Shown here: piece after piece, positions 7,130-23,100 of the stretch
Layout of the letters: each line of letters opens with the position of its first letter
Position numbering within the stretch: position 1 is the stretch's first letter
Program-made: the position numbers and the translations under genes
The notes under the pieces: generated by a model
Databases searched by the model: none
Told to the model about the DNA's origin: nothing
What the model saw: only the letters and a program-made list of their open reading frames with translations
Assembly: GCA_902524845.1 (NCBI GenBank)
Contig: CABZEW010000017.1
Location: 1-40,365 of the forward strand
Origin: an uncultured Alphaproteobacteria bacterium
GTDB taxonomy: Bacteria > Pseudomonadota > Alphaproteobacteria > Rhodobacterales > Rhodobacteraceae
Reading direction: 5' to 3'
DNA: 40,365 bases

Positions 7130-7226
7130 TATTATCTCGAGTTATAAAAGTCCTTTTAAAATGTAGCAAGCCTGATATCCTAATCACCTATTTGTGAACG
7201 CTTACAAACATAAAATTGAGGTAAGT

Positions 7227-8390: not shown

Positions 8391-8439
8391 TATAAATTGA
8401 ATCATTAGGCCCTTAAAGTGAACAACGAGGGGGTTCTAA

Positions 8440-8930: not shown

Positions 8931-9023
8931 AACATACTTGCAGTCTGCTTTTCTATTTTTTGTAATAAAAGAAATTAAATCTTTGTATTTTAACGTTTCA
9001 GTTAATGATATCGGAGAGTGTTC

Positions 9024-9368
9024 CTACTGATAAAAGGCCTGTTCAGGAACGATATGATTTCCTTGAGTATCCAAAAAAATTTTATAAACCTTTGCCACCG
9101 CACTTAAAGGTAAAGGCGCATATAAATGTGGAAATAGCTGTTTGTCTCTACTAACCTCCCAAACAAGGTCTAATTTATCAGTATTTACTTCTAACAAATA
9201 CAACGGGCTTTTTGACTTGAAATATTTTTCAAGGGTCCCTTCTAATTGTTCTGAAGTGGAAAAGTGAATAAAACCATCATTTTTATCGATTTTTGATCCT
9301 TCGAAAAAGTCATTTTGTTTTACGTTTTCCCATTCATCTTCCTGGCAAACCTTAAATACTTTACTCAT
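9024..9368 (-). CDS. DUF952 family protein
   Basis: About 114 residues from ATG 9368, which has AGAAAGAAG just upstream; a longer frame to 9422 lacks a better site. Family signatures: VFKVCQEDEWENVKQNDFF at the N-terminus, GFIHFSTSEQLEGTLEKYF (the DGFIHcS motif), LYLLEVNTDKL, and FPHLYAPLPLSAV near the end. DUF952 is widespread in Alphaproteobacteria and has no firm assigned function. It sits alone between the DUF924 relic and the accessory region. Confidence 0.88.
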   Translation of the reverse strand: MSKVFKVCQEDEWENVKQNDFFEGSKIDKNDGFIHFSTSEQLEGTLEKYFKSKSPLYLLEVNTDKLDLVWEVSRDKQLFPHLYAPLPLSAVAKVYKIFLDTQGNHIVPEQAFYQ

Positions 9369-9630
9369 CAACTTCTTTCTGGCTCTACTCCTTTGATAAG
9401 GGGACCATTGGGCTCCAAACAAAATCGTGTCGAACTCGAGGATAAATTGTCGCTGATATATGCAAAAAAAACAAATAAATTACAGTAAAAAATAATATTT
9501 CATGACAGCATATTGTTAGTTCAATTAAAAAGTTATTTTGATAACCCATCCAGAGAAAAACCCTTTCCGAAACCCGATATTGTAACTCCAGACAGAGTAA
9601 CGTCCATCGATATATGGTTAATTTTTGCGG

Positions 9631-9888
9631 CTAGACGAAGTAAGGTGGGTGTCTCTGAAGGAAGTGAAGGTTTATATTTTTTTTTAAGTAAATTAACATG
9701 AACGATATGAATGCCAAACAAATTATGGCAAATAAAATCTCTAATTTAAGGAGCGCTAAGTCATTCAATTGCTGGTTACTTTCAATTTGGTTAAACACGC
9801 CATACCCAAAAATAACAACAAAAACACAATATATAAACTGGCTAATAAAATGTGTTCCGCCTTTTTTTTGTTTTAGATTGTTTATCAT
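9631..9888 (-). CDS. Possible small membrane protein
   Basis: 85-codon frame with two hydrophobic segments (about residues 15-34 and 46-66), a basic N-terminus and a KKN after the second segment, as in small two-helix inner-membrane proteins. No strong ribosome site is visible; AAAGA just before the ATG is the only candidate. I see no family match. Two overlapping frames on either strand in 9513-9721 have even less support. It lies in an otherwise gene-poor stretch. Confidence 0.35.
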   Translation of the reverse strand: MINNLKQKKGGTHFISQFIYCVFVVIFGYGVFNQIESNQQLNDLALLKLEILFAIICLAFISFMLIYLKKNINLHFLQRHPPYFV

Positions 9889-10236
9889 TCTTTGTTAGGA
9901 GCTTTTAGTTATTATTTGTTCAAATATTTAGTCATACATGACCATATCAAGTTTGTAGTACTTCCACAAATAAAATGGACTTATATTACTTACTAAAAGT
10001 TTGTCACATTAAAGCCTTAAAAAAAGCGCAGTAAATTCTTCCCTTGCGGCATTCTTATGCCTTGTCAAACCGCCTCTTTCTAAGTTTAGCAGTAATACTT
10101 CAAAAAAATTGTTCATATAAACGACTTATTTTGTCATGCCACTTTCTATAATAATCGATAAACATAATCTCAATAAATTTTGAGATTCTTAGCTACCTTA
10201 AGAGCAGATTTGTCTTCAAAGTTAAGTTTGTCTAGG
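9889..10236. other. Non-coding stretch with TTGTCA motifs
   Basis: About 350 bases with no supported gene. It holds several TTGTCA/TTGTCAC motifs (near 10000, 10057 and 10134), resembling the intergenic modules downstream of the second sulfotransferase gene and upstream of the TPR-methyltransferase gene, but without a recognisable guaA-end copy. A hairpin at 10166-10187 lies downstream of the first sulfotransferase gene. Confidence 0.4.
10166..10187 (-). terminator. Hairpin downstream of TPR-sulfotransferase gene 1
   Basis: Perfect 8-bp inverted repeat AATCTCAA / TTGAGATT with a 6-base loop, about 50 bases past the stop codon. There is no T-tract. The sequence AATCTCAATA also occurs about 50 bases past the end of the second sulfotransferase gene (near 15045), where a weaker hairpin can form. 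A terminator or mRNA-end role is possible. Confidence 0.35.
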
Positions 10237-12498
10237 TTATGTGCAAATATTTTTTCTTGGAGGTTGGCTTCCCCCTTTTGGTGATAGCAAAACATCGAAT
10301 GCTCCATTCAAGAATGGTTGATACTTTTTCCATTGTTGAGAGCTGCCCTGGTATAGTTTTTCTCTAACTTGAAGGTTAGATGCTGTTGCTACGCTTCTTG
10401 TATTGTTTTGAGGCGATAGGCAGTTTTCATCCCAATCTAAGTCAAGATGATCAATAAGCTGCCGAGTTTCCTCCTCCTGATTGATAGTTAAAGCTTCATA
10501 ATCAAGATCGTAAATTCTTTTATTTAGTGTGTTTGTCCAAAACGCCATAAGATTTACATAGAGGTTATGATACCTGACGATGTCATCGAGAGCGTAACAG
10601 TAGCCCAGGTTTTTTGAAGCAAAATTCTGCTTATAATTTCCCCAACACACCGCTGCAGGGTTTCGTTTAACATGTATAATTTTAGCTTCAGGAAAAGCTG
10701 CGGCTAGCAGTCCTATTAAACGGAAGTTTTGAGGCATTTTGTCTGTAACAAGCAATTTTCCATGAGAATGACTCTTAAGTTTTGTCAGATATTTATGCCG
10801 AAAATTAAGCAAGGCTTCACGATCTACTTTTGTCAAGCCCTTTGTAATAGCTGATCCGAACTGAGCTGCATAAGGTAATTCTCCTGCACCTGTAACTAGT
10901 GAATGAGACGAAATTATTTGTTCAACTAAAGTTGTGCCAGAACGCGGCATGCCAACGATAAAAATTGGTGCCACATCCTTTGGGAATTTTTCAGATGCTA
11001 GTGAATTCTGTTCTATCTGCGGATAGTTAAATTTAATTTGTCTGAAAAGTTCTGTATCTTGTCTTATATTATAGTTTAATAGCTTTTTGCGTAGCGCATT
11101 ACCCTCTTTATAGTGAGCAAAAGCTTGTTTAAAATCACCTAGATCATCACATGCCTTGGCTAAGCCAAAGTTAACATGGCAACGTTGTTCATCAGAAATA
11201 TTGTTATTAAGATATAGCTCAAGCATTTTTAAATAATGTTCATCTTGTGCATCAAATTTTTTTATCAATGCCAGCATCCTGTGGGCTTCAGCATAGTCAG
11301 GCTTCAACGCTATTACTTTTTTAAAGTTTGCTTCAGCCTCATTTAATCTTCCTAGTTCTTGTAGTGTGACACCCAAGTTATAGTGGGCTTCAGTATAGTC
11401 AGGCTTTAACGCTATTGCTCGGTTATAGCTTACTTCAGCTTCGTCTATTCTTCCCAGTCTTCTGAGAGTAGCGCCCAAGTTGCTGTGGGCTTCAATAAAT
11501 TCAGGCTTCAAGTCGATTGCTATGTTACAGCTTACTTCAGCTTCGTCAAATCTTCTCAGTTCTTTGAGTGTAGCACCCAAGTTACTGTGTGCTTCAGCAT
11601 AGTCAGGCTTCAGCGCTATCGCTCGGTTATAGCTTAGTTCAGCTTCGTCTATTCTTCCCAGTTCTTGAAGCATGTTGCCTAGATTATAGTTGGCTTCGGC
11701 AAAATCAGGCTTCAACGTTATTGCTTGGTTATAGCTTACTTCAGCTTCGTCTAATCTCCCCAGATCTCGTAGAATGTTGCCCAAGTTGCTATGAGCCTCA
11801 GCATAGTCAGGCTTCAACACTATTGCTTGCCTACAGTTCGCCTCAGCTTCTTCTAATCTTGCCAGTTCTTGTAGCGTGACACCCAAGTTACTGTAGGTTT
11901 CGGCATCTTGAGGAGCTAATGCAATTGCTGTCTGATTAGCATCTACGGCTTCAGATTTTCGACCCATCGCCTTAAATATTACCCCTAGTGCTTTCCAGCC
12001 AAAAGGATTCTTAGGAAACTCTTTTGTAAGGGATACAGCCAGCTTTTCAGCGTCATCTAACTGTTCGCTTTGATAGAGCTCTAGCAGACTACTGATTTGT
12101 TGCTGAGTTGGACTTACACTCTTGGCACTTTCTATTTGAATTTCAGGAGCTATTTGTGCCTCGAGATTATCCAATTTATCTCTCGCCACGCCCCGCGTTT
12201 TTGCCTGTTCAATTACTTGCTTAGCATTATAAAATTGCTTCTCTTTTATGTGGGCATAAATGTAACTCAGCCAAAACTGGTCTATATTTGGGTTACTTTC
12301 AAGAGCGGTTTTAAACAACGGCAATGCCTCATTGGCTTTATTAAGAGAAACTACTAATATGCCGAGGTTGTGGTTAGCGTCCGGATGTTTAGGCTGAGAT
12401 TTTAATACAGTGCGATATAAACGCTCGGCATCTTGCAGTTTACCTTCTTTATGTGCAGCAACACCTTGCTGCAGTACTTTCTCAACAGTTAGTTCCAT
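10237..12498 (-). CDS. TPR-sulfotransferase 1
   Basis: About 753 residues. Layout: an extra N-terminal TPR-like module (about 1-125), a linker, a second module starting SSLLELYQSEQLDDAEKLA (137-200), six near-perfect 34-residue TPRs (200-403), then a Sulfotransfer_3-type domain (about 505-745). The PAPS-binding 5'-phosphosulfate loop is FIVGMPRSGTTLVE (514-527); a 3'-phosphate region follows around VKRNPAAVCWGNYKQNF. TPRs in such proteins usually bind a protein partner, so protein sulfation is an inference. ATG 12498 (GAG six bases upstream) is preferred to the TTG before it. Codons from about 413 to near the end are identical in DNA to TPR-sulfotransferase 2. Confidence 0.9.
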   Translation of the reverse strand: MELTVEKVLQQGVAAHKEGKLQDAERLYRTVLKSQPKHPDANHNLGILVVSLNKANEALPLFKTALESNPNIDQFWLSYIYAHIKEKQFYNAKQVIEQAKTRGVARDKLDNLEAQIAPEIQIESAKSVSPTQQQISSLLELYQSEQLDDAEKLAVSLTKEFPKNPFGWKALGVIFKAMGRKSEAVDANQTAIALAPQDAETYSNLGVTLQELARLEEAEANCRQAIVLKPDYAEAHSNLGNILRDLGRLDEAEVSYNQAITLKPDFAEANYNLGNMLQELGRIDEAELSYNRAIALKPDYAEAHSNLGATLKELRRFDEAEVSCNIAIDLKPEFIEAHSNLGATLRRLGRIDEAEVSYNRAIALKPDYTEAHYNLGVTLQELGRLNEAEANFKKVIALKPDYAEAHRMLALIKKFDAQDEHYLKMLELYLNNNISDEQRCHVNFGLAKACDDLGDFKQAFAHYKEGNALRKKLLNYNIRQDTELFRQIKFNYPQIEQNSLASEKFPKDVAPIFIVGMPRSGTTLVEQIISSHSLVTGAGELPYAAQFGSAITKGLTKVDREALLNFRHKYLTKLKSHSHGKLLVTDKMPQNFRLIGLLAAAFPEAKIIHVKRNPAAVCWGNYKQNFASKNLGYCYALDDIVRYHNLYVNLMAFWTNTLNKRIYDLDYEALTINQEEETRQLIDHLDLDWDENCLSPQNNTRSVATASNLQVREKLYQGSSQQWKKYQPFLNGAFDVLLSPKGGSQPPRKNICT
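10260..11264. repeat. 1005-bp exact direct repeat, copy 1
   Basis: Line-by-line comparison shows no difference from 15115-16119 (offset 4855). It covers the whole sulfotransferase domain and the start of the linker after the TPRs. Identity stops sharply at both ends: at 10259 within the last codons and at 11265 at the end of the TPR array. Confidence 0.95.
11293..11904 (-). repeat. Tandem 102-bp TPR-coding repeats (6 units)
   Basis: Six consecutive 34-codon units of the form AEAHSNLG--L-ELGR-DEAE-SYN-AIALKPDY. The units are similar at DNA level (the strings agcttc(a)gct and cttcaacgctat(t/c) recur each 102 bp), so copy number could change by slippage or recombination. The second sulfotransferase gene has five such units. 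Confidence 0.85.
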
Positions 12499-13169
12499 CA
12501 AATACTCATATTCCCTATCTCCCGCATGCTTTGAGCATCATTTTAATTCGCAACTACCTGCTTTTTGTAATGCCCTTTCATTACAAGCACTGTATTGACT
12601 TTCATAGGATTCGGATAGAAGGTTTTTTTATCTCTAAATCCAAGGAGTAGCAAGATTTCAACCTTATATTATAGTACAGCGTCTAGACACAGCCTCAATA
12701 TTACTAGTATCTAACGACGTTAAGCAGAGTTATTAGACAGCAGAAAACAGTACATTTATTATTAATCTTCATATGCTATAATTTTTTGTGTTTAAGAAAC
12801 GGCTTTTTTAGGGGTCTAGAGTTCGATCACAGTTCCAGCTTTGTTATTTTCAGTGGGTTTGCAAAGTTTCAGAGTAGGTTGTTTGATAACTTCGGTTAAG
12901 GAAATAAAGATTACGCGAGTGACTTTTTCACGCCGCCTTACCCATTTCCTTTGGCAATGCCACAACGCTGGTGCTAAACGTAAGCATCAACTCAAGTTCA
13001 ATTTAAAGAATCCTTCTCAAGCCTTTTAAAAAGAAATATTACGAACGAGCAATTTAGGTTCTTATTCTCAGGAGTATTTGCTTTATATTTTTACTTTTTG
13101 TTAGCATAAAATAAGAAACTTATATGGCAGAGAGAAATTTTTTTTATTTTCTATGGTTCAAGGATTATA
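12499..13169. other. Gene-poor stretch, possible relic
   Basis: About 670 bases with no convincing gene. The part near 12816-12990 is richer in G+C than its surroundings. It holds an open minus-strand frame of about 57 codons without a start and a 62-codon plus-strand frame (12841-13029), neither with a family signature. It may be a relic of a transferred gene. The string GTGACTTTTTCAC near 12918 resembles the GTCAC motifs of the island repeats. Confidence 0.3.
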
Positions 13170-13268
13170 ATGATCAAACTAATACAGAGACTTGAAGATT
13201 TTGATTTGGATAATGTAAAAATATTCCCCGTTTCAAAAAATATATTATTAACGGTCAAAAAAATATAA
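13170..13268 (+). CDS. Possible small ORF upstream of the APS-kinase-like gene
   Basis: 32 codons starting MIKLIQRLEDFDLDNV, with AAGGA six bases before the ATG, ending 10 bases before the next gene. It could be a small cotranslated protein or a leader. No family recognised. Confidence 0.3.
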   Translation: MIKLIQRLEDFDLDNVKIFPVSKNILLTVKKI

Positions 13269-13278
13269 ATTTAATATT

Positions 13279-13692
13279 ATGAAAATTTTAGTAATGGGCC
13301 TTCCAGGCAGTGGTAAGACATATTTAGCAGAACGTTTGGTTCCGCTAATAAAAGCAGCGTGGTATAACGCAGATAAAGTCCGTCATATGGCAAATGATTG
13401 GGATTTTTCAGATGAAGGCAGACATAGACAATCAAACAGGATGAGAACTTTTGCAGATTTTGAAAAATCTCATGGCAGGTTAGTAGTCTGCGATTTCGTC
13501 TGTCCTACTGAAGCAACAAGAGAGAATTTTGATGCAGATATCGTTGTTTGGATGGATACCATTGAAGAAGGAAGATACGAAGACACTAATAAACTTTTTC
13601 AAAGTCCTAAAAAGGTAGACTTTTATATTACAGAATGGAACGAGCATAATCATGACGATGTTGCAAAAATGATTCTGCAATGGGAAAAATAA
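13279..13692 (+). CDS. APS-kinase-like (CysC-like) P-loop protein
   Basis: 137 residues with Walker A GLPGSGKT at 7-14. The following layout matches adenylylsulfate kinase: a NADKVRHMANDWDFS segment in place of LDGDnvR..l..dLgFs, then GRHRQSNRMRTFADF in place of the DR.eNirR block, then a G-RLVVCDFVCPTEATRENF strand like G-ivi.a.iSP...R. It is shorter than CysC (about 200) and lacks the usual C-terminal part. Phosphorylation of APS to PAPS is therefore plausible but unproven; another small-molecule kinase is possible. It lies between two sulfotransferase genes that need PAPS and is followed by a nucleotidyltransferase. Confidence 0.7.
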   Translation: MKILVMGLPGSGKTYLAERLVPLIKAAWYNADKVRHMANDWDFSDEGRHRQSNRMRTFADFEKSHGRLVVCDFVCPTEATRENFDADIVVWMDTIEEGRYEDTNKLFQSPKKVDFYITEWNEHNHDDVAKMILQWEK

Positions 13693-13786
13693 TTAAAAAA
13701 AAGACATCTCACAAAAACCTTAATTGGAGAGTGCTAACAAAAAAAGATACATTTCACGTTTTATGGATTATCACAGGAGAAATTTA

Positions 13787-13894
13787 TTGAGCAGCAGGAA
13801 TGATGAGGATAGAGTTTTAACAAAAATGATTTCATGTTATTGGCACAAACTTCGTTGGCATAAAAATTTTAATTTTGGAGTAAAAAATGTTTGA
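13787..13894 (+). CDS. Possible small ORF coupled to the nucleotidyltransferase
   Basis: 35 codons from TTG 13787 with AGGAG seven to eight bases upstream. The C-terminal part reads CYWHKLRWHKNFNFG, rich in aromatic and basic residues. Its stop codon overlaps the first codons of the nucleotidyltransferase (ATG at 13887), typical of translational coupling. No family recognised with certainty. Confidence 0.4.
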   Translation: MSSRNDEDRVLTKMISCYWHKLRWHKNFNFGVKNV

Positions 13895-14276
13895 TTGGAA
13901 AAAACCCACAGTCCAAATGTTGGGTAGATGGCAACCATGGCACGACGGACATAAAGCACTTTTTAAAAGATGTATGGTAAAAACAGGTCAAGTCATCATT
14001 CAAGTTAGAGACGTCCAAGGTGCATCGGGTGGTGATGGTCAAGATGATAATCCCTTTGACTGGAATACTGTCTGTTCAAATATTGAAGAGGGTCTATTAA
14101 AAGAGGGTTTCATAAGAGGTGCTGAATATGAAATAATGTTGGTTCCTAATATAGTCAACATTACTTATGGAAGAGGTGTTGGTTATGTCTTTGAAGAAGA
14201 GGTTTTTGATAAGTCGGTAACTGAAATTAGTGCAACTAATATAAGACAAAAATTAAGAGAAGAAGGTAAGTTATAA
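13887..14276 (+). CDS. HxGH-motif nucleotidyltransferase (cytidylyl/adenylyltransferase-like)
   Basis: 129 residues, a compact nucleotidylyl-transferase Rossmann domain. The N-terminal GRWQPWHDGHKALF contains the HxGH signature in the GRFQPfHxGH form seen in NMN adenylyltransferases; NPFDWNTV matches the NPF-x-x-x-R area, and ISATNIRQKLREEGKL is the C-terminal ISxTxIR signature. It is expected to transfer AMP or CMP from an NTP to a phosphate or similar acceptor. Substrate unknown. It is not canonical ATP sulfurylase (much larger, with GRDH), though both belong to the same superfamily. GGAG six to seven bases upstream supports the ATG. It follows the APS-kinase-like gene. Confidence 0.8.
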   Translation: MFDWKKPTVQMLGRWQPWHDGHKALFKRCMVKTGQVIIQVRDVQGASGGDGQDDNPFDWNTVCSNIEEGLLKEGFIRGAEYEIMLVPNIVNITYGRGVGYVFEEEVFDKSVTEISATNIRQKLREEGKL

Positions 14277-14397
14277 CTCTTCCCAAATATAAAGATTTTC
14301 ATTATATTCCTATCGGTTAACTCACCTTTTGCGTTCGTCCTACGGTTGTTTAATTTTAATTTGCAGTTGCGTGGATAGATCTGCCTTTGGTCCTTAA

Positions 14398-14505
14398 TTA
14401 CCAAATCTGATATTCCTCATTTTCATCAACAACATCTTTACGACCAAACTTAATACCGTCCTTGACCGCTGTTTTGATTGCTACTATGTGCATGTCCCCT
14501 CTCAT
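14398..14505 (-). CDS. Possible small ORF or gene remnant
   Basis: 35 codons from ATG 14505 with AGAGGA just upstream. It begins MRGDMHIVAIKTAVKDGIKF and ends DENEEYQIW, which has the composition of real protein. The same frame is open for about 26 more codons upstream without an ATG, so this could instead be the 3' end of a lost longer gene. No family recognised. Confidence 0.35.
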   Translation of the reverse strand: MRGDMHIVAIKTAVKDGIKFGRKDVVDENEEYQIW

Positions 14506-14745
14506 GTTGTCCTCTGAATCTGCAAAAAACCAACTATATAAAAAAGAGAACCCATAGTAGATTAAGTATCTATTCCTTGTTTATGAGAATAGATATTAAT
14601 GTATAAATATTTTAATGGATATAACCTCACAACAAAGTACTTCATTGAACAACTAATTGCTACTGAGTAACATTTCATAATTTCAAATTTATCTTATTTA
14701 CAATAATTTATATAAAAAAATTATCTAAATTACTCACGCTCAATT

Positions 14746-14935
14746 GTTCTGTCCCTGCAATTCCTTGGCTATATATTTTTTAAAAAAATTTGTTATTGCT
14801 TGGTGACTTTTTACACTTTCAGACTAACGAAGAGCTATTACTTTTAGCCTTTGTCAAATCGTTATTCAGCTTCACCATATTTGCACATTCAGTCATTGTC
14901 ACTTAACCAAAGTCTATTATAGAAAGTGACAGACA
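14746..14935. repeat. Island repeat module A (degenerate att copy plus arm)
   Basis: It begins with CGCTCAATTGTTCTGTC, a degenerate copy of the guaA 3' end. It then shares the order TATTTTTTAAAA, GTGACTTTTTACACTTTCAG, ACT-ACGAAGA-C-ATTACTT with modules B and C. It ends in an inverted pair GTCACTT ... AAGTGAC (about 14898-14929) also seen in module C. Confidence 0.6.
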
Positions 14936-15103
14936 TTTACACAAAATTAAGCTAAACAAATGCTATCGTCCAGAGCATCAAAACTTTATTCAAGAAGACG
15001 ATTTCGAAAATAAATTAGTAGACGTAAGACTTTGTAAATATTAAATCTCAATATTTCATAGAGTTCAAATGACATACTGTTAGATTTTTTAATTTATACA
15101 CTC

Positions 15104-16882
15104 TTATTTTCTTAGAGGTTGGCTTCCCCCTTTTGGTGATAGCAAAACATCGAATGCTCCATTCAAGAATGGTTGATACTTTTTCCATTGTTGAGAGCTG
15201 CCCTGGTATAGTTTTTCTCTAACTTGAAGGTTAGATGCTGTTGCTACGCTTCTTGTATTGTTTTGAGGCGATAGGCAGTTTTCATCCCAATCTAAGTCAA
15301 GATGATCAATAAGCTGCCGAGTTTCCTCCTCCTGATTGATAGTTAAAGCTTCATAATCAAGATCGTAAATTCTTTTATTTAGTGTGTTTGTCCAAAACGC
15401 CATAAGATTTACATAGAGGTTATGATACCTGACGATGTCATCGAGAGCGTAACAGTAGCCCAGGTTTTTTGAAGCAAAATTCTGCTTATAATTTCCCCAA
15501 CACACCGCTGCAGGGTTTCGTTTAACATGTATAATTTTAGCTTCAGGAAAAGCTGCGGCTAGCAGTCCTATTAAACGGAAGTTTTGAGGCATTTTGTCTG
15601 TAACAAGCAATTTTCCATGAGAATGACTCTTAAGTTTTGTCAGATATTTATGCCGAAAATTAAGCAAGGCTTCACGATCTACTTTTGTCAAGCCCTTTGT
15701 AATAGCTGATCCGAACTGAGCTGCATAAGGTAATTCTCCTGCACCTGTAACTAGTGAATGAGACGAAATTATTTGTTCAACTAAAGTTGTGCCAGAACGC
15801 GGCATGCCAACGATAAAAATTGGTGCCACATCCTTTGGGAATTTTTCAGATGCTAGTGAATTCTGTTCTATCTGCGGATAGTTAAATTTAATTTGTCTGA
15901 AAAGTTCTGTATCTTGTCTTATATTATAGTTTAATAGCTTTTTGCGTAGCGCATTACCCTCTTTATAGTGAGCAAAAGCTTGTTTAAAATCACCTAGATC
16001 ATCACATGCCTTGGCTAAGCCAAAGTTAACATGGCAACGTTGTTCATCAGAAATATTGTTATTAAGATATAGCTCAAGCATTTTTAAATAATGTTCATCT
16101 TGTGCATCAAATTTTTTTACTGATGCAAGCTTACTATAGGCTTCAGCATAGTCAGGCTTCAACGCTATTACTTTTTTATAGCTTGCTTCAGCCTCATTTA
16201 ATCTTCCTAGTTCTTGTAGTGTAACACTCAAGCTGTAGTATGCTTTGGCAAAGTTAGGCTTCAACGCTATCGCTTGATTAAAGGTTTCTTCAGCCTTATC
16301 TAATTTCCCTAGTTCTCGTAGCATGATACCTAAGTTATAGAAAGCTTCAACATAGTTAGGCTTTAACGCTATGGCTTGCCTACAGCTTGCTTCAGCTTCG
16401 TCTAATCTTCTCAGTCCTTTAAGTGTAACGCCCAAGTTGGTATGGGCTTCAGCAAAGTCTGGCTTCAACGCTATCGCTCGGTTATAGCTTGCTTCAGCTT
16501 CGTCTAATCTTCGCAGTCCTTTAAGTGTAGCGCCCAAGTTGCTATGGGCTTCAGCAAAGTCGGGCTTCAACGCTATCGCTCGGTTATAGCTTGCTTCAGC
16601 TTCGTCTAATTTTCCCAGTTCTTTGTGTATGTTGCCCAAGTTATAGTGGGCTTCGAAGTCTTGAGGTGATAATGCAATTGCTGTCTGATTAGCATCTACG
16701 GCTTCAGATCTTCTACCTTTTGCCTTAAATATTGCACCGAGTGCTTTCCAGCCAAAGGGATGCTGATGATACTCTTGAGTAAGGGATACAGCCAGCTTTT
16801 CAGCGTCATCTAACCGTCCACTTTGATAGAGCTCTGAAAGACTGATGATTTGTTGATGAGATGGGCGTTCACTATTGACCAT
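15104..16882 (-). CDS. TPR-sulfotransferase 2
   Basis: 592 residues. An N-terminal module (about 10-75, LSELYQSGRLDDAEKLAVSL and GWKALGAIFKAKGR) is followed by five 34-residue TPRs (76-245) and the same Sulfotransfer_3-type domain as TPR-sulfotransferase 1, with P-loop GMPRSGTTLVE. It lacks the extra 125-residue N-terminal module of copy 1. From just after the TPRs to near the stop the DNA is identical to copy 1. The two therefore probably perform the same chemistry with different TPR recognition surfaces. The start is ATG with GAGAAAC upstream. Confidence 0.9.
   Translation of the reverse strand: MVNSERPSHQQIISLSELYQSGRLDDAEKLAVSLTQEYHQHPFGWKALGAIFKAKGRRSEAVDANQTAIALSPQDFEAHYNLGNIHKELGKLDEAEASYNRAIALKPDFAEAHSNLGATLKGLRRLDEAEASYNRAIALKPDFAEAHTNLGVTLKGLRRLDEAEASCRQAIALKPNYVEAFYNLGIMLRELGKLDKAEETFNQAIALKPNFAKAYYSLSVTLQELGRLNEAEASYKKVIALKPDYAEAYSKLASVKKFDAQDEHYLKMLELYLNNNISDEQRCHVNFGLAKACDDLGDFKQAFAHYKEGNALRKKLLNYNIRQDTELFRQIKFNYPQIEQNSLASEKFPKDVAPIFIVGMPRSGTTLVEQIISSHSLVTGAGELPYAAQFGSAITKGLTKVDREALLNFRHKYLTKLKSHSHGKLLVTDKMPQNFRLIGLLAAAFPEAKIIHVKRNPAAVCWGNYKQNFASKNLGYCYALDDIVRYHNLYVNLMAFWTNTLNKRIYDLDYEALTINQEEETRQLIDHLDLDWDENCLSPQNNTRSVATASNLQVREKLYQGSSQQWKKYQPFLNGAFDVLLSPKGGSQPLRK
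15115..16119. repeat. 1005-bp exact direct repeat, copy 2
   Basis: Identical to 10260-11264 at every base compared, in the same orientation. The flanks differ on both sides, so the identity is confined to the sulfotransferase-coding part. Recombination between the copies would excise 4855 bp carrying the kinase and nucleotidyltransferase genes. Confidence 0.95.
16148..16657 (-). repeat. Tandem 102-bp TPR-coding repeats (5 units)
   Basis: Five consecutive 34-codon units (residues 76-245). Units 1-3 are very similar in DNA (gcttcagcttcgtctaat and ggcttcaacgctatcgctcg recur), suggesting recent internal duplication. Confidence 0.85.
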
Positions 16883-17386
16883 AAGTTTCTCATTTTTTTG
16901 GAGTATAAACTTAAAAATGTAGATGAATCAATAGTCTTTGATTAGGTTCATCACTGCTTTGCCACTTATAAAATCACGTAAGTCATTGATTTTATGAACT
17001 TCTATTAGGCACAGTTTATTCCTGCTCAATTCTTTTACATTTGCAAGTAATTGATTTTATTATATTTTTTAAAAGTTTGTCGCTACTTTTTCACGTTTTA
17101 CACTTTCAGACTTTTGAAGAACTATTACCTCCTATCCATTCATGAGTACTTTTTAACGCCAATAATACTTAGAAATTAAGTATATGTTTAGAAAGAAAAG
17201 TTTGTTACAAAAATTTAAGCTGACTTTTTAAGATTCCAATATACTTTACTTCGCAAACAAGAAGAGTTTCTCGGATTAAAAGTAGTAAATAACAAGATAA
17301 CCCTCAGTCATTGAACAAAACTCTTTTTTTATTTGAAGTGTTCCAATCACGCCTTTTGGTTATTTAAGGTTCGTTAGATTGTTTTT
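16883..17386. other. Intergenic stretch upstream of TPR-sulfotransferase 2
   Basis: About 500 A/T-rich bases without a supported gene. It contains repeat module B (17022-17135) and presumably the promoter of TPR-sulfotransferase 2 near 16890-17000. It also holds the 3' flank of the TPR-methyltransferase gene. Confidence 0.5.
17022..17135. repeat. Island repeat module B (degenerate att copy plus arm)
   Basis: Begins CTGCTCAATTCTTTTAC (degenerate guaA-end copy) and continues AAGTAATTGATTTTATTATA, TTTTTTAAAAGTTTGTCGCT, ACTTTTTCAC, TTTACACTTTCAGACTTTTG and AAGAACTATTACCTCCTAT. This matches modules A and C closely. Confidence 0.65.
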
Positions 17387-19678
17387 CTACAGCTTTTGAC
17401 ACCAAAATTGGTACATTCCCCCAAAAGTTTTTGGACTATTTTCTTCATATTTGTGCCACAATTCTAGATCATATATGTCTGAGTCTTTCCTATGAAAAAC
17501 TCCAAAATCTGAAATTATATCTTTATCTTCAAATCCGCAGAATTTAAGTCCCAAACTTTTGAGACATTTCGCAATCTGTGGAAGTGTAAATCGATGCTCT
17601 TGTACATGAAATATCAAGTCTCGTATGGTACTAAGACTAAAAAAATCAGGTGACTTAGCCAATCGTTGATGGCTTACTTTTGAAGATTCAATCATCGATT
17701 GCCTAAATTGACGCATGTCAGTCTCTGAAGTGCCAACCTCGAGTAATTTGATTTCGTTTCTAATGCTTACAATATCTTGTCGCGCTAACTCACTATACAA
17801 ACCTATGTTCATCAAACCACCGGGCTTTAAAAGATTAGTGAGAACCCGCCATCCAAGCATAGGATCGGACATGTGATGAAGAACACCCACGCTTTCAATT
17901 ATATCAAATTTTTTCCCTAGGTGATTTAGGTTAATGATGTCAGCTTGTAAGTAATCTATGTTTGTAAATTTATTCTCGACGGTTTTTCTCTTTGCATAAG
18001 CGAGGCTAGCAAGACTCAGATCTACAGCGGTGACATGGCAACTAGTAAAGCGAGAGGCTGTTTGTAAAGAATGTTGTCCTGTACCACAGCCAGCTACCAA
18101 TATTTTAGGATAAGTTACTTCTTTAATATTTTCGGAATACAGCTTTAGGCTCTTTGTCTCAAAAATTTCAGCGATAGACTTTGCATTTTTGTGGAGTCCT
18201 GTTTTCACCCATCTTGGAAAGGGGTTCTCTTCATACTGCTCTCTTACTTTATTCGAAACATTGTCTGATATCTCTCCCAAAATAGCTATGTCTTTTGTAA
18301 TTGCTTTCTCTGCAAGTGGTTCTTCTAACAATATTTTTTTTATGTCGTCCAAGTGATTGAGTACTTCTAAATCTTTACACCATTTGTATTTATGTAGTTG
18401 ACGATAAGAGGCAAGGCACAATATGTTTTTCAGCTCAGGTTGCTTTGATTGTTTGATAGATTCAGTGATCATTGCCTCAAGTTCACTAACCAATTTCGTT
18501 TCCTCTTTACTTTCAAAATAAATATACTCATTGATAAAACATTGAAGGGAAAGGGTTGATAAAAAATAATTGAGTGCAGGAGAGGCTGCTAATTTATCGA
18601 GGTTAATTAATATAAAAAACCGCATCTTTACAAAAAATTGCTCCAACTCGAGATCAGGAAGTGGGCAAATACGCATCAAATGGTGAAGAAGCGAGAGTTT
18701 ATTAAGAGCCTCTATTGTGCAGGATGTCTTTTTTAGATTCTTAAAAATATTTTTCTCAGCAAGCAAATCTTTAATCAATGGATCATGCTTCAAGAGACTT
18801 AATATAGAAAATGCAACGTCTTCCGGACGAATTTGATTTTCGAATTTCAGTAAATTTAGCAATACAGGATATAAACTGCGATTGGATGACTCAAAGTTTA
18901 TATTTTTAAGAATGAAACTTAAGTTCCCATATGCTTCAGTAAAATTTTCTTTTAAACTAATAGCCTTAAGGTGGAGGGATAACGCTTCTTCCCATCTCCC
19001 CAATTTTCGCACAACAATACCCAAGTCAGTGTAAGCTGCAGCAATTCCAGCGTCTAAAGCTATTACATGCCTGTAACTAGATTCTGCTTCCTTTAATTTT
19101 CCTTGTTTATAAAGTATTCCAGCTAAGTTAAGGTGAGCTATATATGAATGAGGATTAGTCTCTGTTGCTTGTTTGAAACTTTTTTCTGCCTTTTTGAATT
19201 TGCCTAACTTTGTAAAAGTTATGCCCAAATTAAGGTACGCTTTGAAATATTTAGGTCTCGAAGCTATTGCTTTTAAGTAGTTTGCTTTTGCTTCCTCAAA
19301 CCTTTTTAGCTTTTGCATCGTGACTCCCATGTAGTGGTGGGCTTCAGCATAGTCAGGTTTTAAGGTAATTGCTTTTCTGAGTGCTTTTTCAGCTTCGCCT
19401 AATCTAGCATTTTTTAATAGCGTCCAACCTAAGGAATAGTGAACTTTGGCATCCGAAGGAGATATTTGTGCAACTTTTTGAATTGCAGTTAAAGACTCCT
19501 TAGTTTTGCCAGTTTTTTGGAGAATTCCCCAAAGGGCTTTCCATGCAACCTCACTTGTAGGAACTTCTTGTGTGATAGATATTGCAAGCTTTTCAGCATC
19601 ATCAAGCCTTCCATTACGATAGTATTCAAAAACGCTGTTAAGTTGTTCCTGAGTTCGACTTGTTGGTTTGCTGTCCAT
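17387..19678 (-). CDS. TPR-methyltransferase (class I SAM)
   Basis: 763 residues. TPR array at about 75-255, a helical middle region (260-470), then a class I SAM-dependent methyltransferase domain from about 520. Motif I is ILVAGCGTG (525-533), an acidic strand AVDLS follows (551-555), and FDIIESVGVLHHM (591-603) is motif IV-like. A QYEENPFPRW motif (481-490), typical of TPR-methyltransferases, precedes the domain. The N-terminus (YYRNGRLDDAEKLAISITQE, AWKALWGIL) is homologous to the start of both sulfotransferases. Substrate unknown; a protein or glycan bound through the TPRs is inferred. Its ribosome site GGTGGGAG is part of a degenerate guaA-end repeat. Confidence 0.9.
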   Translation of the reverse strand: MDSKPTSRTQEQLNSVFEYYRNGRLDDAEKLAISITQEVPTSEVAWKALWGILQKTGKTKESLTAIQKVAQISPSDAKVHYSLGWTLLKNARLGEAEKALRKAITLKPDYAEAHHYMGVTMQKLKRFEEAKANYLKAIASRPKYFKAYLNLGITFTKLGKFKKAEKSFKQATETNPHSYIAHLNLAGILYKQGKLKEAESSYRHVIALDAGIAAAYTDLGIVVRKLGRWEEALSLHLKAISLKENFTEAYGNLSFILKNINFESSNRSLYPVLLNLLKFENQIRPEDVAFSILSLLKHDPLIKDLLAEKNIFKNLKKTSCTIEALNKLSLLHHLMRICPLPDLELEQFFVKMRFFILINLDKLAASPALNYFLSTLSLQCFINEYIYFESKEETKLVSELEAMITESIKQSKQPELKNILCLASYRQLHKYKWCKDLEVLNHLDDIKKILLEEPLAEKAITKDIAILGEISDNVSNKVREQYEENPFPRWVKTGLHKNAKSIAEIFETKSLKLYSENIKEVTYPKILVAGCGTGQHSLQTASRFTSCHVTAVDLSLASLAYAKRKTVENKFTNIDYLQADIINLNHLGKKFDIIESVGVLHHMSDPMLGWRVLTNLLKPGGLMNIGLYSELARQDIVSIRNEIKLLEVGTSETDMRQFRQSMIESSKVSHQRLAKSPDFFSLSTIRDLIFHVQEHRFTLPQIAKCLKSLGLKFCGFEDKDIISDFGVFHRKDSDIYDLELWHKYEENSPKTFGGMYQFWCQKL

Positions 19679-19681
19679 TTT

Positions 19682-19742
19682 CTCCCACCCAATTGTTCTA
19701 CGTCTTTAAGTAATTGAATTTATTGACTTTTTAAAAATCAAG
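19682..19742. repeat. Island repeat module D (att copy plus truncated arm)
   Basis: TCTCCCACCCAATTGTTCTA is a guaA-end copy with about three differences from the core. It is followed by CGTCTTTAAGTAATTGAATT and ACTTTTTAAAA, the same arm as module B, which is cut off by module C. Confidence 0.65.
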
Positions 19743-19764
19743 TCACTCCCACTCAATAGTTCCA
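19743..19764. repeat. Near-perfect copy of the guaA 3' end (att-like direct repeat)
   Basis: Matches 21559-21580 at 21 of 22 bases in the same orientation. Read on the minus strand its core is GGAACTATTGAGTGGGA, then GTGA, so it still encodes GTIEWE and a stop, like guaA. This is what integration at the guaA 3' end leaves behind. Confidence 0.85.
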
Positions 19765-19955
19765 CGTCTGTAGTCTTTGATTTTGATACCTTTTTTAAAA
19801 TTTTGTCACTACTTTGTCACTTTTTACACTTTCAGACTTTCGAAGAACAATTGCTTCTATGCTTTGCTTATTCCTCATCATGCTCAATTATAGTTGAACA
19901 TTAAGTGCTTGTCACATAACAAGAGTTTGTCATGAAAAGTGACAGACTTTGTCAG
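19765..19955. repeat. Island repeat module C (arm)
   Basis: Arm following the att copy: TTTTTTAAAATTTTGTCACT, ACTTTGTCACTTTTTACAC, TTTCAGACTTTCGAAGAAC, then CTTGTCACATAAC and an AAAAGTGACAGAC that pairs with it. On the minus strand, AGTGACAAAGTAGTGACAAA looks like paired arm-type recombinase sites. Shared with modules A and B. Confidence 0.65.
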
Positions 19956-19960
19956 ATATC

Positions 19961-20370
19961 TTAGAATTTCTTTTTTGCTTCTTTGCATTTATACAAGTCT
20001 GCAGTTTCTACTTTTCCCTTGCCTTTAAATTTGACACTTGAAACGAGTTTTGCTTGTCCTGAATATCTATCTATCCTCAATCTTGTATTAAAGTTTGTGT
20101 TATCTCTGTCATCCTCTGAGATGCATTCATATGAAGAAGGTGTTTAAAAAAGTAATTGAGGCAGATAGTTTTGAATACATTTATCATCTGGTATTTCAAT
20201 AGATATCGGCTCTCCCGAATTATTATTGCTCTTTCGTTGTTTTATTATTTCGCCTTTAGCATCGGTTTCAATAACGTATGAATTCTCAACATAATTGCAA
20301 GACAAAGTTATGGAAAAACTTAATGATGGAACGTCGCACAGTAATTGATAATAAAATAAATTGTTTTCAT
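19961..20370 (-). pseudogene. Broken small secreted-protein gene
   Basis: The minus-strand frame reads SLSFSITLSCNYVENSYVIE, GEPISIEIPDDKCIQNYLP, then an in-frame TAA (20144-20146), and continues SSYECISEDDRDN, RLRIDRYSGQAKLVSS and ADLYKCKEAKKKF to TAA at 19961. A plausible start (ATG 20370, MKTIYFII, signal-like) is in another frame. One nonsense and one frameshift change therefore disable it. The two Cys-containing halves resemble each other. Family unknown. Confidence 0.55.
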
Positions 20371-20455
20371 ATTTTCTTTGAAAGATTGATTACAAATGCT
20401 TCAAGTCATCTTTAAAATTATAATGCTGAAAAACTCATCTAATTTATCAATATGT

Positions 20456-20785
20456 TTAATCTGGGAGAGGTGTAGAGCCAGTTTCAGAACGATAAATCTT
20501 ACCGTCCCTTTTTAGTCCAACATACATCACGGCATCTCTACCATTCGGAAATGTTGTAATGCTATGGATGACTATTATATCCTCATTCTCATAAATGCAT
20601 CTAACATTATCACGTTTTACATCAGGATTTTCTAATATTTTTCCAAAGAACTCTTTCCATTCCTCAAGTTTTATGACTTTACCTGTTGAGTGAAATTGAA
20701 ACTCCCAATCTGGATGGAAGAATTCAGTTAATTTATCTATATTTCTACTTTCCCAAGCTTCATTAAATTTCTCAAAGATAGCCAT
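20456..20785 (-). CDS. NTF2-like (SnoaL-fold) protein, paralogue 3
   Basis: 109 residues starting MAIFEKFNEAWESRNIDKL, then FFHPDWEFQFHSTGKVI, CIYENEDIIVIH and GLKRDGKIYRSETG. This is the helix-helix-sheet pattern of SnoaL/DUF4440-type NTF2-like domains, usually small-ligand binding or isomerase scaffolds. It shares the YENED and DGKI-R signatures with the two genes upstream. Function unknown. No catalytic residues can be assigned by eye. Confidence 0.75.
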   Translation of the reverse strand: MAIFEKFNEAWESRNIDKLTEFFHPDWEFQFHSTGKVIKLEEWKEFFGKILENPDVKRDNVRCIYENEDIIVIHSITTFPNGRDAVMYVGLKRDGKIYRSETGSTPLPD

Positions 20786-20901
20786 TTCACTCCTACCGCT
20801 ACATTACTTAATATATTATACTGTATGGATTTTTATAGTTTTGAAAAGATAATAAATTGACTATTACTTGAAAAAAAAACGTTCTTAAAATCAAGGTTGT
20901 T

Positions 20902-21234
20902 TTACCGTGCTTCAAACACACTTTTACCATGGTTAGCTTCCCTGTCAGATTCAAATTTCTTTGTTAAACAGCCATCATGACATGAGCCATCTTCTTGCCT
21001 TTCAAGTCTTGTGTAATTCATGCAGTCTTCATTCTCATACAAACATTTTTCTTCAAACATAAAATCGGAAGCCTTTTCACTTCTTGAAAAAAAATCTTTT
21101 ATTCTTTCTAAGAATTCATCTCGCATCCTCATCTGGCTCTCGAAAACAAAAAAATAATCATCAGCAACCCAATCTTCTAAGAGTGCATAATCTTTATTGT
21201 GCAGTATGTGGATCATCTTTTCGTAAGAAGTCAT
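20902..21234 (-). CDS. NTF2-like (SnoaL-fold) protein, paralogue 2
   Basis: About 110 residues from ATG 21234, one base after the stop of the preceding paralogue, so translation is coupled. MTSYEKMIHILHNKDYALLE, DWVADDYFFVFES and CLYENEDCMNYTRLE follow the family pattern. The C-terminal part (DGSCHDGCLTKKFESDREAN) departs from the DGKIWR pattern of the others and has two extra Cys, so this copy is drifting or specialised. A longer frame to 21255 overlaps the upstream gene and is not needed. Confidence 0.7.
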   Translation of the reverse strand: MTSYEKMIHILHNKDYALLEDWVADDYFFVFESQMRMRDEFLERIKDFFSRSEKASDFMFEEKCLYENEDCMNYTRLERQEDGSCHDGCLTKKFESDREANHGKSVFEAR

Positions 21235-21235
21235 C

Positions 21236-21556
21236 TCAACTACTTTCAACTGCATTGCTCATTTCTCTCCAAATTTTTCCGTCTTTCCACATCTGTACTT
21301 GTACAACTCTATAGTTTTTTCCACGTACATTGATATTGTAACTATATGCCATCATATCCTTATCCTCATACAAAAACTCAGGGTTGATGACACTTATCTT
21401 CTTTCCAAATTGTGTTTTCATGAACTCTACATGTTCTTCTCTGTTTACCAGTGTATTATCTTTCAAATATAGATAATCTTGATGAAAAGTATCCTCAATG
21501 CCAGACGCATCTTTTGTTTCTAAATCAGATTTTAATTTCTCAAATTTTTCACCCAT
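21236..21556 (-). CDS. NTF2-like (SnoaL-fold) protein, paralogue 1
   Basis: 106 residues from ATG 21556, two bases past the guaA stop. The sequence is MGEKFEKLKSDLETKDASGI, TFHQDYLYLKDNTLVNREEH, LYEDKDMMAYSYN and MWKDGKIWREMSNAVESS. NTF2-like fold, function unknown. The ribosome site is the GTGGGA of the guaA stop region, that is the att core, so expression probably depends on guaA transcription. First gene of the island side. Confidence 0.78.
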   Translation of the reverse strand: MGEKFEKLKSDLETKDASGIEDTFHQDYLYLKDNTLVNREEHVEFMKTQFGKKISVINPEFLYEDKDMMAYSYNINVRGKNYRVVQVQMWKDGKIWREMSNAVESS

Positions 21557-21558
21557 AA

Positions 21559-21580
21559 TCATTCCCACTCAATAGTTCCA
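21559..21580. repeat. guaA 3' end, att-like site
   Basis: Last 22 bases of guaA including its stop (core GGAACTATTGAGTGGGA on the minus strand). The 3' end of guaA is an established integration hotspot for tyrosine-recombinase islands, with GAGTGGGA as the common direct repeat. Partner copy at 19743-19764. Confidence 0.8.
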
Positions 21581-23100
21581 GGAGGTTTAGAGGTTATATC
21601 AAATAAGATTCTGTTTATCCCTTTGACTTCATTAATTATTTTATTACTCGTTTCTGCTAAAAATTCTCTATTGAAGTAAGAGAAATCAGCGGTCATTCCG
21701 TCAGTACTACTTACAGCTCTTAAGACACAGCTATATTCGTGGGTCCGCGCGTCACCCATTACACCCACGCTTTTTACAGGTAGTAAAATTGCTAGCGCTT
21801 GCCATACATTATTATACAAATTGTGCTTTTTTAATTGTTCTACAAAAATATAATCTGCTTCTCGCAACAGACTAAGCTTCTTGGCTGTTATTTCACCAGG
21901 ACACCTTATAGCTAATCCAGGTCCAGGAAAGGGATGTCTATTTAAAAAAGAATTATCAAGCTTTAACTCGGATCCAATTTTTCTAACCTCATCTTTAAAA
22001 AGTGTTTTTAATGGTTCTACCAAAGTTAGTTTCATTTTCTTTGGTAACCCACCAACGTTATGATGGCTTTTAATAGTAGCAGCTGCTTTTCCATGCACCG
22101 AGGTGGACTCGATAACATCTGGATAAAGAGTGCCTTGTGCCAGAAAGCTTACATTTCTCAGCTTTTTAGCTTCCTTTTCAAAGATCCTAATAAACAGTTT
22201 GCCTATAATTTTCCTCTTCTTCTCTGGATCACTTACACCCTTAAGATTTTTTAAAAATAGTTGTTTCCCTTTTACGGATATTAGGTTTATCTTGAAATTT
22301 TTCTTAAAAAGATACTCTATCTGAGCAGCTTCTTGTTTTCGAAGAAGGCCATTATCTACAAAAATACAGGTTAGATTTTTCTTTATCGCCTTATGCAACA
22401 GAAGAGCTGTGACTGTGCTATCCACTCCACCGGATAAAGCGCAAATTACTTTTCTATCTCCAATATAGGATTTTAATTCAGCGACCAAATCGTCTGTTAT
22501 CTTATTTGGTGTCCAGTTTCTTTTAATATTTGCAATATTTACAAAGTTTTCCAGAAATTTTTTTCCATTTATAGTGTGAAATACTTCGGGATGAAACTGG
22601 ACACCATAAATTTTTCTAACAGTATCTCCAATAACTGAGAACGGAGAAGTATCCGAGCTTGCAAGCTCTAAAAATCCCTTTGGTAATTCTGTTACTGCAT
22701 CTCCATGGCTCATCCAAACTTCTTCTATGTTTTTTTTAAATAAATTTTCTAGAATTGCTGAATGATTTTTAGTATTTCTACGAATTATTGTTTTTCCAAA
22801 TTCTCTCTTTTCTGTCTCTGATATTTTGCCTCCTAACAGTTTGCAGATAAGCTGGTGTCCATAGCAAATTCCTAAAAGAGGAATATTAAACTTAAATACT
22901 TTTTTTGAAATTGTCGGACTTTTCTTCATCCTTGTGGAGTCCGGGCCTCCCGACAGTACAATGGCTTTTGCTTTTTTCAGCGATATGGCACTTATAATAT
23001 CCTCGTCCCATGGAATGATTTCACAATAAACGTTGAGCTCTCTTATACGTCTTGCAATCAGCTGAGTTACTTGACTTCCAAAATCAACGATAAGGATCAT
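21559..23100 (-). CDS. guaA: GMP synthase (glutamine-hydrolysing)
   Basis: 513 residues, full length. Converts XMP to GMP with glutamine and ATP in purine synthesis. The N-terminal class I glutamine amidotransferase domain has GICYGHQL (nucleophile Cys79) and VQFHPEV. The ATP pyrophosphatase domain has the P-loop ALSGGVDSTV. The C-terminal dimerisation domain has HPFPGPGLAIR and ends KPPGTIEWE, the conserved terminus. The intact C-terminus means integration here restores the gene. Divergent from the MttB-family gene. Confidence 0.98.
   Translation of the reverse strand: MILIVDFGSQVTQLIARRIRELNVYCEIIPWDEDIISAISLKKAKAIVLSGGPDSTRMKKSPTISKKVFKFNIPLLGICYGHQLICKLLGGKISETEKREFGKTIIRRNTKNHSAILENLFKKNIEEVWMSHGDAVTELPKGFLELASSDTSPFSVIGDTVRKIYGVQFHPEVFHTINGKKFLENFVNIANIKRNWTPNKITDDLVAELKSYIGDRKVICALSGGVDSTVTALLLHKAIKKNLTCIFVDNGLLRKQEAAQIEYLFKKNFKINLISVKGKQLFLKNLKGVSDPEKKRKIIGKLFIRIFEKEAKKLRNVSFLAQGTLYPDVIESTSVHGKAAATIKSHHNVGGLPKKMKLTLVEPLKTLFKDEVRKIGSELKLDNSFLNRHPFPGPGLAIRCPGEITAKKLSLLREADYIFVEQLKKHNLYNNVWQALAILLPVKSVGVMGDARTHEYSCVLRAVSSTDGMTADFSYFNREFLAETSNKIINEVKGINRILFDITSKPPGTIEWE

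Follow-up and report, generated by a model that had tools for sequence, protein, structure and literature searches.

Putative scars of small elements serially inserted at the 3' end of guaA in an uncultured Rhodobacteraceae bacterium

Gene gain by streamlined plankton bacteria is an open question, and the window analysed here, a whole stretch of 40,365 nucleotides from an uncultured Rhodobacteraceae bacterium, poses it in a concrete form: how did degenerate copies of the end of a housekeeping gene come to lie scattered between cargo genes? We argue, with a probability of roughly 0.88, that the modules carrying these copies are attL-type scars of small elements which site-specific recombination inserted serially at the guaA 3' end. 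With every such event guaA would receive a fresh 3' end brought in by the element, and the old end would be shifted leftwards along with the element's arm; since the old end would be pushed leftwards each time, the newest insert should adjoin guaA and the oldest should lie furthest off. Comparison of genome sequences shows insertion at guaA, the order of insertion, a layout in common with an integrase-bearing element and two cargo segments which are more alike between lineages than the host genes are.

Insertion takes place at the 3' end of the host gene guaA (GMP synthase), which occupies 21559-23100 on the minus strand as a 513-aa ORF ending in GTIEWE; this 3' end constitutes the live attachment core TCATTCCCACTCAATAGTTCCA (21559-21580, plus strand). 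Downstream of guaA we found five scars, all given on the plus strand and starting at 19743 (C), 19679 (D), 17019 (B), 14731 (A) and about 9946 (E). The first-pass annotation had described four related modules, A to D, each with a degenerate guaA-end copy, a common block and a common arm; all four are present, and a fifth, E, was overlooked to the left of the interval it covered. Module C (19743-19957) consists of a displaced core differing from the guaA 3' end (21559-21580) at 1 of 22 positions, a T/A block, paired arm sites (TTTGTCA at 19802 and 19813, with more copies at 19926 and 19948) and an IHF-like site with 2 mismatches. Module D (19679-19742) is a displaced core, different from the guaA 3' end at 6 of 22 positions, followed by 42 nt, after which it is truncated by C; as C starts 64 bp after the start of D, D has no arm, and the earlier statement that the two are adjacent and that C removed the arm of D was borne out. 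We read D as what remained of an element after its interior was lost, probably through recombination between the element's two end repeats. Module B (17019-17180) has a decayed core, an IHF-like site of exact consensus and an arm, while module A (14731-14960) has a decayed core, a full-length arm and an IHF-like site with 2 mismatches. With module C as query, A matched at E 2.9e-21 with 73% identity and B at E 3.5e-20 with 87% over 76 nt, both far beyond chance. A, B and C have one arm type; among the window modules the block CGAAGAAC is exact in C only, with TTGAAGAAC in B and CGAAGAGC in A. Module E (9946-10240) carries a second arm type and its core is no longer recognisable; the same arm type was found in the relative G304, with whose modules at 6761 and 9190 E aligns, and window positions 10000-11762 match G304 9261-11020 at 78%. 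E forms the left end of the island, and the locus therefore spans about 9,946-21,580.

The comparison covered 22 genomes of the genus, all of them incomplete (58-91%), 13 of which gave an orthologous guaA hit; the contigs of two of these, G306 and G302, end at or inside guaA, which leaves 11 with readable DNA downstream. Identity of the guaA protein was 82-84% in 10 of the 12 other genomes with such a hit, 68% in G308 and 76% in G303, where the copy is partial. The arm together with the core occurred in 7 of the 22 genomes, the window's own included, and in just one of 292 genomes of the order, again the window's own, being absent from the 291 others. In five further genomes of the genus the arm of A, B and C sits downstream of guaA; the one match in a sixth, G302, is weak (E 0.0016) and was set aside as chance because it lies away from the guaA contig and overlaps an ORF. 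The arm pair TTTGTCANNNNTTTGTCA occurred three times in the 22 genomes, always inside modules, and its reversed control not once. One could take the arm for a generic dispersed repeat, or for a regulatory element lying near guaA by accident, as it is AT-rich, has no called gene and gave the weak G302 match away from guaA. But every other arm match in the 22 genomes, like all three exact arm pairs, sits downstream of guaA, and the distance from the core is fixed, also with the other arm motif of the integrase-bearing element in G526. We therefore rejected this reading, which we regard as barely credible.

Relatives supplied evidence for insertion. In G305 the insertion site at guaA is unoccupied, and its guaA-downstream sequence, used as query, aligned at positions 1-591 with G304 6185-6775 (90% over 591 nt, running into the leftmost displaced core) and at positions 579-609 with the guaA end of G304 at 11332-11362 (97% over 31 nt). 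In G304, 4.6 kb separate the two parts of what is one contiguous site in G305, and these parts overlap by 13 nt within the guaA end (ATTCCCACTCAAT in the letters of G305), where the crossover probably took place. The G305 junction is split at the same place in G309, the query parts 1-572 and 581-610 lying about 8.8 kb apart with no measured overlap. Furthermore, a cassette that adjoins guaA in G304 occurs in G308 as well, at a displaced position. The two copies agree at 73 of 79 nt to the left of the core and at 20 of 22 in the core, while to its right, where the arm replaces guaA, just 16 of 60 nt agree. Displaced cores were found in 6 of the 11 genus genomes with readable guaA-downstream DNA, and also in G526 and G464. 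Against serial insertion, G294, G300 and G307 hold cargo with no recognisable displaced core, G294 having an arm relic only; the contig of G298 ends 1.4 kb on. An internal repeat of G294 (5444-5591 and 7687-7833) was inspected and did not resemble a module. Another way to build such a locus would be tandem duplication of the guaA end and the TPR genes by homologous recombination, with no integrase involved, and 1005 identical nt common to the TPR-sulfotransferase genes at 10237 and 15104 speak for it. Yet the copies stop inside the core with non-guaA sequence to their right, the cargo is unlike between intervals, the empty site is split with a 13-nt overlap and integrases lie at the same guaA site, so that as a sole cause this route is improbable; homologous recombination probably acts on top of insertion.

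It had also been proposed that the scars age with distance from guaA. Edits to a 43-nt att consensus rise roughly in this order in the window (C 5, D 5, B 10, A 14, E 20), as do those of the 17-nt core against its own guaA end (C 1, D 3, B 5, A 4, E 7). In relatives the trend is mixed: the 43-nt measure gave 2, 5, 16 in G308, 10, 18 in G309 and 14, 14 in G304, and the 17-nt core was flat (2, 2, 2; 3, 3; and 5, 5, respectively). Since the background of the 43-nt measure has a median of 20 and a 5% point of 17, the value of E and the 18 of G309 fall within it, and E is therefore recognised by its arm alone.

In the best-kept scars the core, that is, the guaA end, is followed by an IHF-consensus-like site about 28 nt past its start, then by a T/A block and by a pair of arm sites, spaced 11 bp apart, which starts about 60 nt past the core start. 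TTTGTCA pairs begin 59-60 and 70-71 nt past the core start in module C and in two modules of G308, and G526, which has a core and an IHF-like site, carries a TTGGAAA pair at 61 and 72 nt; G526 and G464 have a similar core-plus-arms far end with different arm motifs. To the right of the cores the IHF-like site was exact in 4 of 14 flanks and within one mismatch in 8 of 14, as against means of 0.03 and 1.0 and maxima of 2 and 5 in 400 first-order resamplings, the rows being related and not independent. To the left of the cores such sites (3 of 29 exact, 10 of 29 within one mismatch) showed no excess over resampling (maxima 3 and 10). In an ungapped test for an IHF-bearing end repeat left of the cores, 6 of 28 sites came out positive, at 0 or 1 of 500 shuffles; one more site gave 8 of 500 shuffles and the rest were undecided, in part because the 60-nt test stretch clips the motif. 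Binding of IHF at the conserved site is what these sequences would predict. Among 385 genomes of the class the core plus IHF-like pattern was found in G526 only, and as this strict pattern misses the window itself the count is no survey.

Which enzyme, then, would catalyse the insertions? A search of the window for PF00589 gave no match. In G309 a tyrosine integrase gene (PF00589, E 3.3e-10) lies directly downstream of guaA, and ten homologues were listed from genera other than this one, 5 among 385 class genomes at 1e-30 and 5 among 390 order genomes at 1e-25. The five strongest of them (G439, G526, G464, G622 and G063) likewise lie directly downstream of guaA. Against this, no guaA occurs within about 1.5 kb of the five weaker ones (G414, G082, G710, G775 and G122), and the genus itself has weaker integrase relatives away from guaA. 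The putative catalyst is a tyrosine integrase of the G309 family. The same arm at guaA island ends or beside integrase genes had been named beforehand as support; it was found at island ends, and none of the 22 incomplete genus genomes (58-91%) yielded an integrase accompanied by the TTTGTCAC arm. Searches with the G309 integrase found none in phages, no confirmed relative in viral contigs and one 25% relative in plasmids; as arm, core-plus-IHF and core-plus-arm patterns also gave 0 matches in viral contigs, a viral origin was rejected. Taken together, the empty site of G305, the displacement between G304 and G308, the positions of the arms and the guaA-adjacent integrases with a similar layout support serial insertion at guaA, as the first-pass annotation had suggested.

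Of the 14 scar-bounded intervals in the genus, one contained an integrase gene. Elements flanked by att sites and devoid of a recombinase are known as cis-mobilizable elements (CIMEs), and att sites at both ends with no integrase gene were found for the window intervals A-B, B-D and C-guaA and for seven further intervals in G296, G303, G304 and G308. Such integrase-less cassettes would be, or would have been, moved by an integrase supplied in trans. Alternatively, full integrase-bearing elements were inserted serially and then lost the integrase and right arm through deletions, so that arm and cargo stayed behind as CIME-like relics that are immobile now, a history compatible with serial insertion which we consider only slightly short of an even bet. 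Several cassettes indeed have no TTTGTCA sites at their right ends, including the window intervals ending at D and guaA; the guaA island of G307 contains an integrase relic, counted as 35 codons in one search and as 44 codons with one stop in another; the D-C arrangement resembles a deletion footprint; and integrase-bearing elements have int at the position where cassettes have a cargo gene. Two cargo segments argue in the other direction. DNA identity between G304 and G308 was 87% over 1848 nt for the TPR cassette common to both, as against 66-70% for host genes, and one segment common to G296 and G308 was 96% identical over 351 nt, as against 68-72%. As these segments are far more alike between distant lineages than the host genes, at least some cassettes moved recently, though homologous recombination could have carried them. 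Cargo of the window was no closer than host genes when compared with cargo of G304 (80%, host genes 69-81%) and of G300 (74%, host genes 73-80%).

TPR genes had been placed between the modules, and they are indeed present in three intervals: a TPR-sulfotransferase gene between E and A (10237-12501, minus strand; Sulfotransfer_3 E 9.4e-41 and TPR in Pfam), another between A and B (15104-16882, minus; Sulfotransfer_3 E 3.2e-41 and TPR) and a TPR-methyltransferase gene between B and D (17387-19678, minus; TPR and Methyltransf_11 E 3.2e-18), the ATG of which abuts the D core. The identical stretch in the two sulfotransferase genes indicates homologous exchange between cassettes, or else an assembly or amplification artefact. 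The oldest interval, E to A, also holds two genes opposite to the usual strand, a small P-loop kinase-like gene (13279-13692, plus; APS_kinase E 1.1e-6) and a gene with 0 Pfam families at E 0.01 (13887-14276, plus). The newest interval departs from the description, having three small genes on the minus strand: a SnoaL_2-like gene (20456-20785; E 1.7e-10, above the Pfam cut-off) and two with weak matches below the cut-off, to SnoaL_3 (20902-21255; E 0.0094) and SnoaL_2 (21236-21568; E 0.0045). The last overlaps the guaA end, and a likely ATG lies 2 nt past the guaA stop. In 10 genomes, 33 of 38 called island ORFs of at least 100 aa follow the reading direction of guaA. It is conceivable, if rather doubtful, that guaA serves as an integron-like entry point at which cassettes that lack an integrase, hold one gene or a few and have an arm of about 200 nt and the guaA end in common are inserted and swapped among related lineages by an integrase acting in trans; given their placement in the guaA direction and the start 2 nt past the guaA stop in the window, the newest cassette would then be expressed with guaA.

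In this bacterium and several relatives the guaA end appears to be a single address where one insertion after another has left a legible trace, with an empty relative and cassettes common to lineages. The inserts mostly come without their own insertion enzyme and otherwise resemble known mobile elements; as there is also a candidate integrase family whose arm motifs stand at predictable positions, gene capture by uncultured bacteria can be put directly to the test in a laboratory strain. The closest parallel is GIsul2/CR2-sul2 (PMC9376610), which, according to the passages on it, inserts at the guaA 3' end at GAGTGGGA, whose reverse complement, TCCCACTC, lies inside the core described here. 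Those passages report three att sites in a row and, in recA-deficient E. coli, excision and integration of an integrase-less unit between two att sites by the GIsul2 integrase. Unlike our cassettes, it is a larger resistance island in other Proteobacteria with its integrase in cis, and no small-cassette array is described in those passages. A streamlined aquatic host, Ca. Methylopumilus, offers another likeness in fGI-2 at tRNA-Lys, a variable island of 330 bp to 42 kb marked by recurring copies of the target gene end, the last 20 bp being repeated (PMC10872708); its target is a tRNA gene, and the passages on fGI-2 describe no integrase or arm sites. The ssrA islands of Dehalococcoides (PMC3146451) likewise form several islands in tandem with target 3'-end copies at their borders, and 16 of 31 carry the integration module; they differ in having a serine recombinase, a tmRNA target and, for the vcr group, islands of about 12 kb. 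Integron cassette arrays, as generally understood and in passages of PMC4119200, are similar in having small cassettes, mostly on one strand, with the newest at the entry point. In contrast to integrons, the entry site here is the end of a housekeeping gene, and the scars resemble phage-type att sites with arms. Neither serial insertion nor a guaA-specific integrase is new in itself; what is new here is the variant, an array poor in integrases.

We compared the window's genome, which has 1.95 Mb in 89 contigs and is 74% complete, with 21 others from the same genus; of these 22, 11 have readable DNA downstream of guaA, the contig of G298 stopping after 1.4 kb. All regions were oriented with guaA on the minus strand and at the right, and coordinates of relatives refer to the oriented regions. 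Among the 11 readable genomes, the relative G305 carries host genes immediately behind guaA. When it was aligned with another relative, G304, 591 nt ran into the displaced guaA-end core of G304 and the alignment picked up again at the live guaA end, with a 13-nt overlap, ATTCCCACTCAAT, which is the likely crossover region. G309 was split at the same place as G304, between positions 572 and 581 of the G305 query, here without a measured overlap. Six of the 11 genomes (the window's own, G296, G304, G309, G308 and G303) show displaced cores, and G294, G300 and G307 carry cargo with no recognisable displaced core, G294 keeping an arm relic only. A 601-codon TPR cassette adjoins guaA in G304 and has been shifted away by two later intervals in G308; left of the core 73/79 nt are common to both, while on the right stands guaA in G304 and an arm in G308. 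Likewise, G303 and G308 have an older cassette, scar and arm in common (85% over 3.6 kb) and diverge beyond that. Serial site-specific insertion at guaA is well supported, among other things by the G305/G304 split and the displaced TPR cassette; the first-pass annotation had suggested that the locus may have grown by serial insertion.

In the window all four of the att-plus-arm modules claimed earlier were present, namely A (14731), B (17019), D (19679) and C (19743), and C truncates D as described, interrupting it 64 bp past its start. The cores of C and D differ from the live guaA end (21559-21580) at 1/22 and 6/22 positions, respectively, and A and B have decayed cores with clear arms. A fifth module, E, was found at ~9946-10240, its arm type matching two G304 modules, and the island therefore extends over ~9,946-21,580. 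Next to its left end two host genes are shortened: the one at 8616-8864 has 82 aa (~181 aa in G305, G296, G300 and G308), and the one at 9631-9888 has 85 aa, where six relatives have 166-167 aa. A search with module C (E 0.01) gave matches in 7/22 genus genomes. In the wider order 1/292 genomes matched, namely the window's own. Five other genus genomes (G308, G296, G303, G304 and G294) carry the arm downstream of guaA, within ~5 kb, which bears out its suggested tie to guaA and island ends; in the sixth, G302, the match is weak and on a different contig from guaA. Across the 22 genomes the exact arm pair was found three times: module C has one copy, and the other two are in modules of G308.

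In the better-kept scars the core spans 0-21 from its start and is followed at +25 to +28 by an IHF-consensus-like site, YAANNNNTTGATW, and then by a T/A block. In module C, in two modules of G308 and in G526, a genome from another genus, the first arm site lies at +59 to +61 and the second 11 bp on, with the motif TTTGTCA or TTGGAAA; G309 has a single TTTGAAA at +60. The IHF-like site exceeded resampling in right flanks (4/14 exact, 8/14 with at most one mismatch) and did not in left flanks (3/29 and 10/29). A longer IHF-bearing stretch recurs left of 6/28 cores (window 17019 and 19743, G304 9190, G308 18425, G439 and G464). If the two stretches of this kind in a single element recombined, its interior would be lost and two cores ~60 bp apart would remain; D-C has this look and may be the footprint of such a loss. 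An additional leftmost arm in G309 (~9492-9560), whose two TTTGAAA sites are spaced by 11 bp, comes after a stretch also present in G304 and G305, and the unoccupied G305 site may itself hold an ancient footprint.

From the scar coordinates, 14 scar-to-scar or scar-to-guaA intervals were computed in six genomes, E included. Ten measure 1.2-2.7 kb, and the remainder are D-C (64 bp), E-A (4.8 kb) and a G309 pair (5.2 and 3.4 kb). The scars had also been proposed to age with distance from guaA. For C, D, B, A and E, edits to a 43-nt consensus (background median 20, 5% point 17) numbered 5, 5, 10, 14 and 20, and 17-nt core edits against the own guaA end 1, 3, 5, 4 and 7. In relatives the consensus edits were mixed (G308 2, 5, 16; G309 10, 18; G304 14, 14) and the 17-nt cores of all three were flat with distance; ageing therefore has fair support in the window but is unproven for its relatives.

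The cargo between the modules includes the expected TPR genes, three in number (two TPR-sulfotransferases and one TPR-methyltransferase), but also a P-loop kinase-like gene, one gene without assignment and three small genes (one with a SnoaL_2 match above cut-off, two with weak SnoaL-type matches). The two TPR-sulfotransferase genes share 1005 identical nt (10260-11264 and 15115-16119, 4855 nt apart), owing to recent gene conversion, or to an artefact of amplification or assembly. Among the cargo of relatives are type I restriction-modification genes, an EamA transporter, an FMN-binding protein and a resolvase; the restriction-modification genes of G309 (L050) lie at 5395-9307, oriented 10694-14606, its ResIII-type ORF being just 364 aa. 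The guaA strand holds 33/38 called island ORFs (at least 100 aa; 10 genomes). Two cargo segments are far more alike between distant lineages than are those lineages' host genes, and the window's cargo showed no such excess likeness to that of relatives. The gene of a 100-aa protein without Pfam match is 96% identical in DNA between G296 (L044, 7829-8128) and G308 (L051, 17523-17825), two genomes that agree at 68-72% in the host genes compared. Between G294 and G300 guaA DNA is 89% identical and five other host genes 74-82%, and on this likeness guaA itself has perhaps been exchanged between lineages.

A PF00589 match was found in 1/14 intervals, the guaA-adjoining one of G309, where a 434-aa tyrosine recombinase ORF starts 145 nt from the guaA end. 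Homologues were noticed in 5/385 genomes of the class (E 1e-30 or better) and 5/390 of the order (E 1e-25 or better), two sets that overlap in part. The five strongest, which reach at least E 5.5e-56 (G439, G526, G464, G622 and G063), all lie directly downstream of guaA, and guaA was not found within ~1.5 kb of the five weaker ones. The far ends of G526 and G464 show core, spacer and paired arm sites (G464 by eye, with different spacing), a 17-nt scan found none in G063, and the G439 and G622 contigs end too soon to read theirs. Within the genus 7/22 genomes matched at 0.001, G309 itself included; the matches also took in an integrase relic in the guaA island of G307 and weaker relatives elsewhere, and none of the six loci tested among the latter had guaA close by. 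An integrase paired with the TTTGTCAC arm, the key missing piece, was not found in the 22 genus genomes. The cassettes may still be moved in trans or may be relics, and we lean slightly towards relics.

Among the matches listed by our literature search, none dealt with guaA arrays of this kind in marine alphaproteobacteria, which is not proof of absence. The closest precedents among the papers listed are GIsul2, inserted at guaA, whose integrase is reported to move an integrase-less unit (PMC9376610), the Dehalococcoides islands at ssrA (PMC3146451) and the additive island at tRNA-Lys in Methylopumilus (PMC10872708). The principle is therefore already known, and what is new here is the variant, in which small cassettes with a common arm form an integrase-poor array at guaA.
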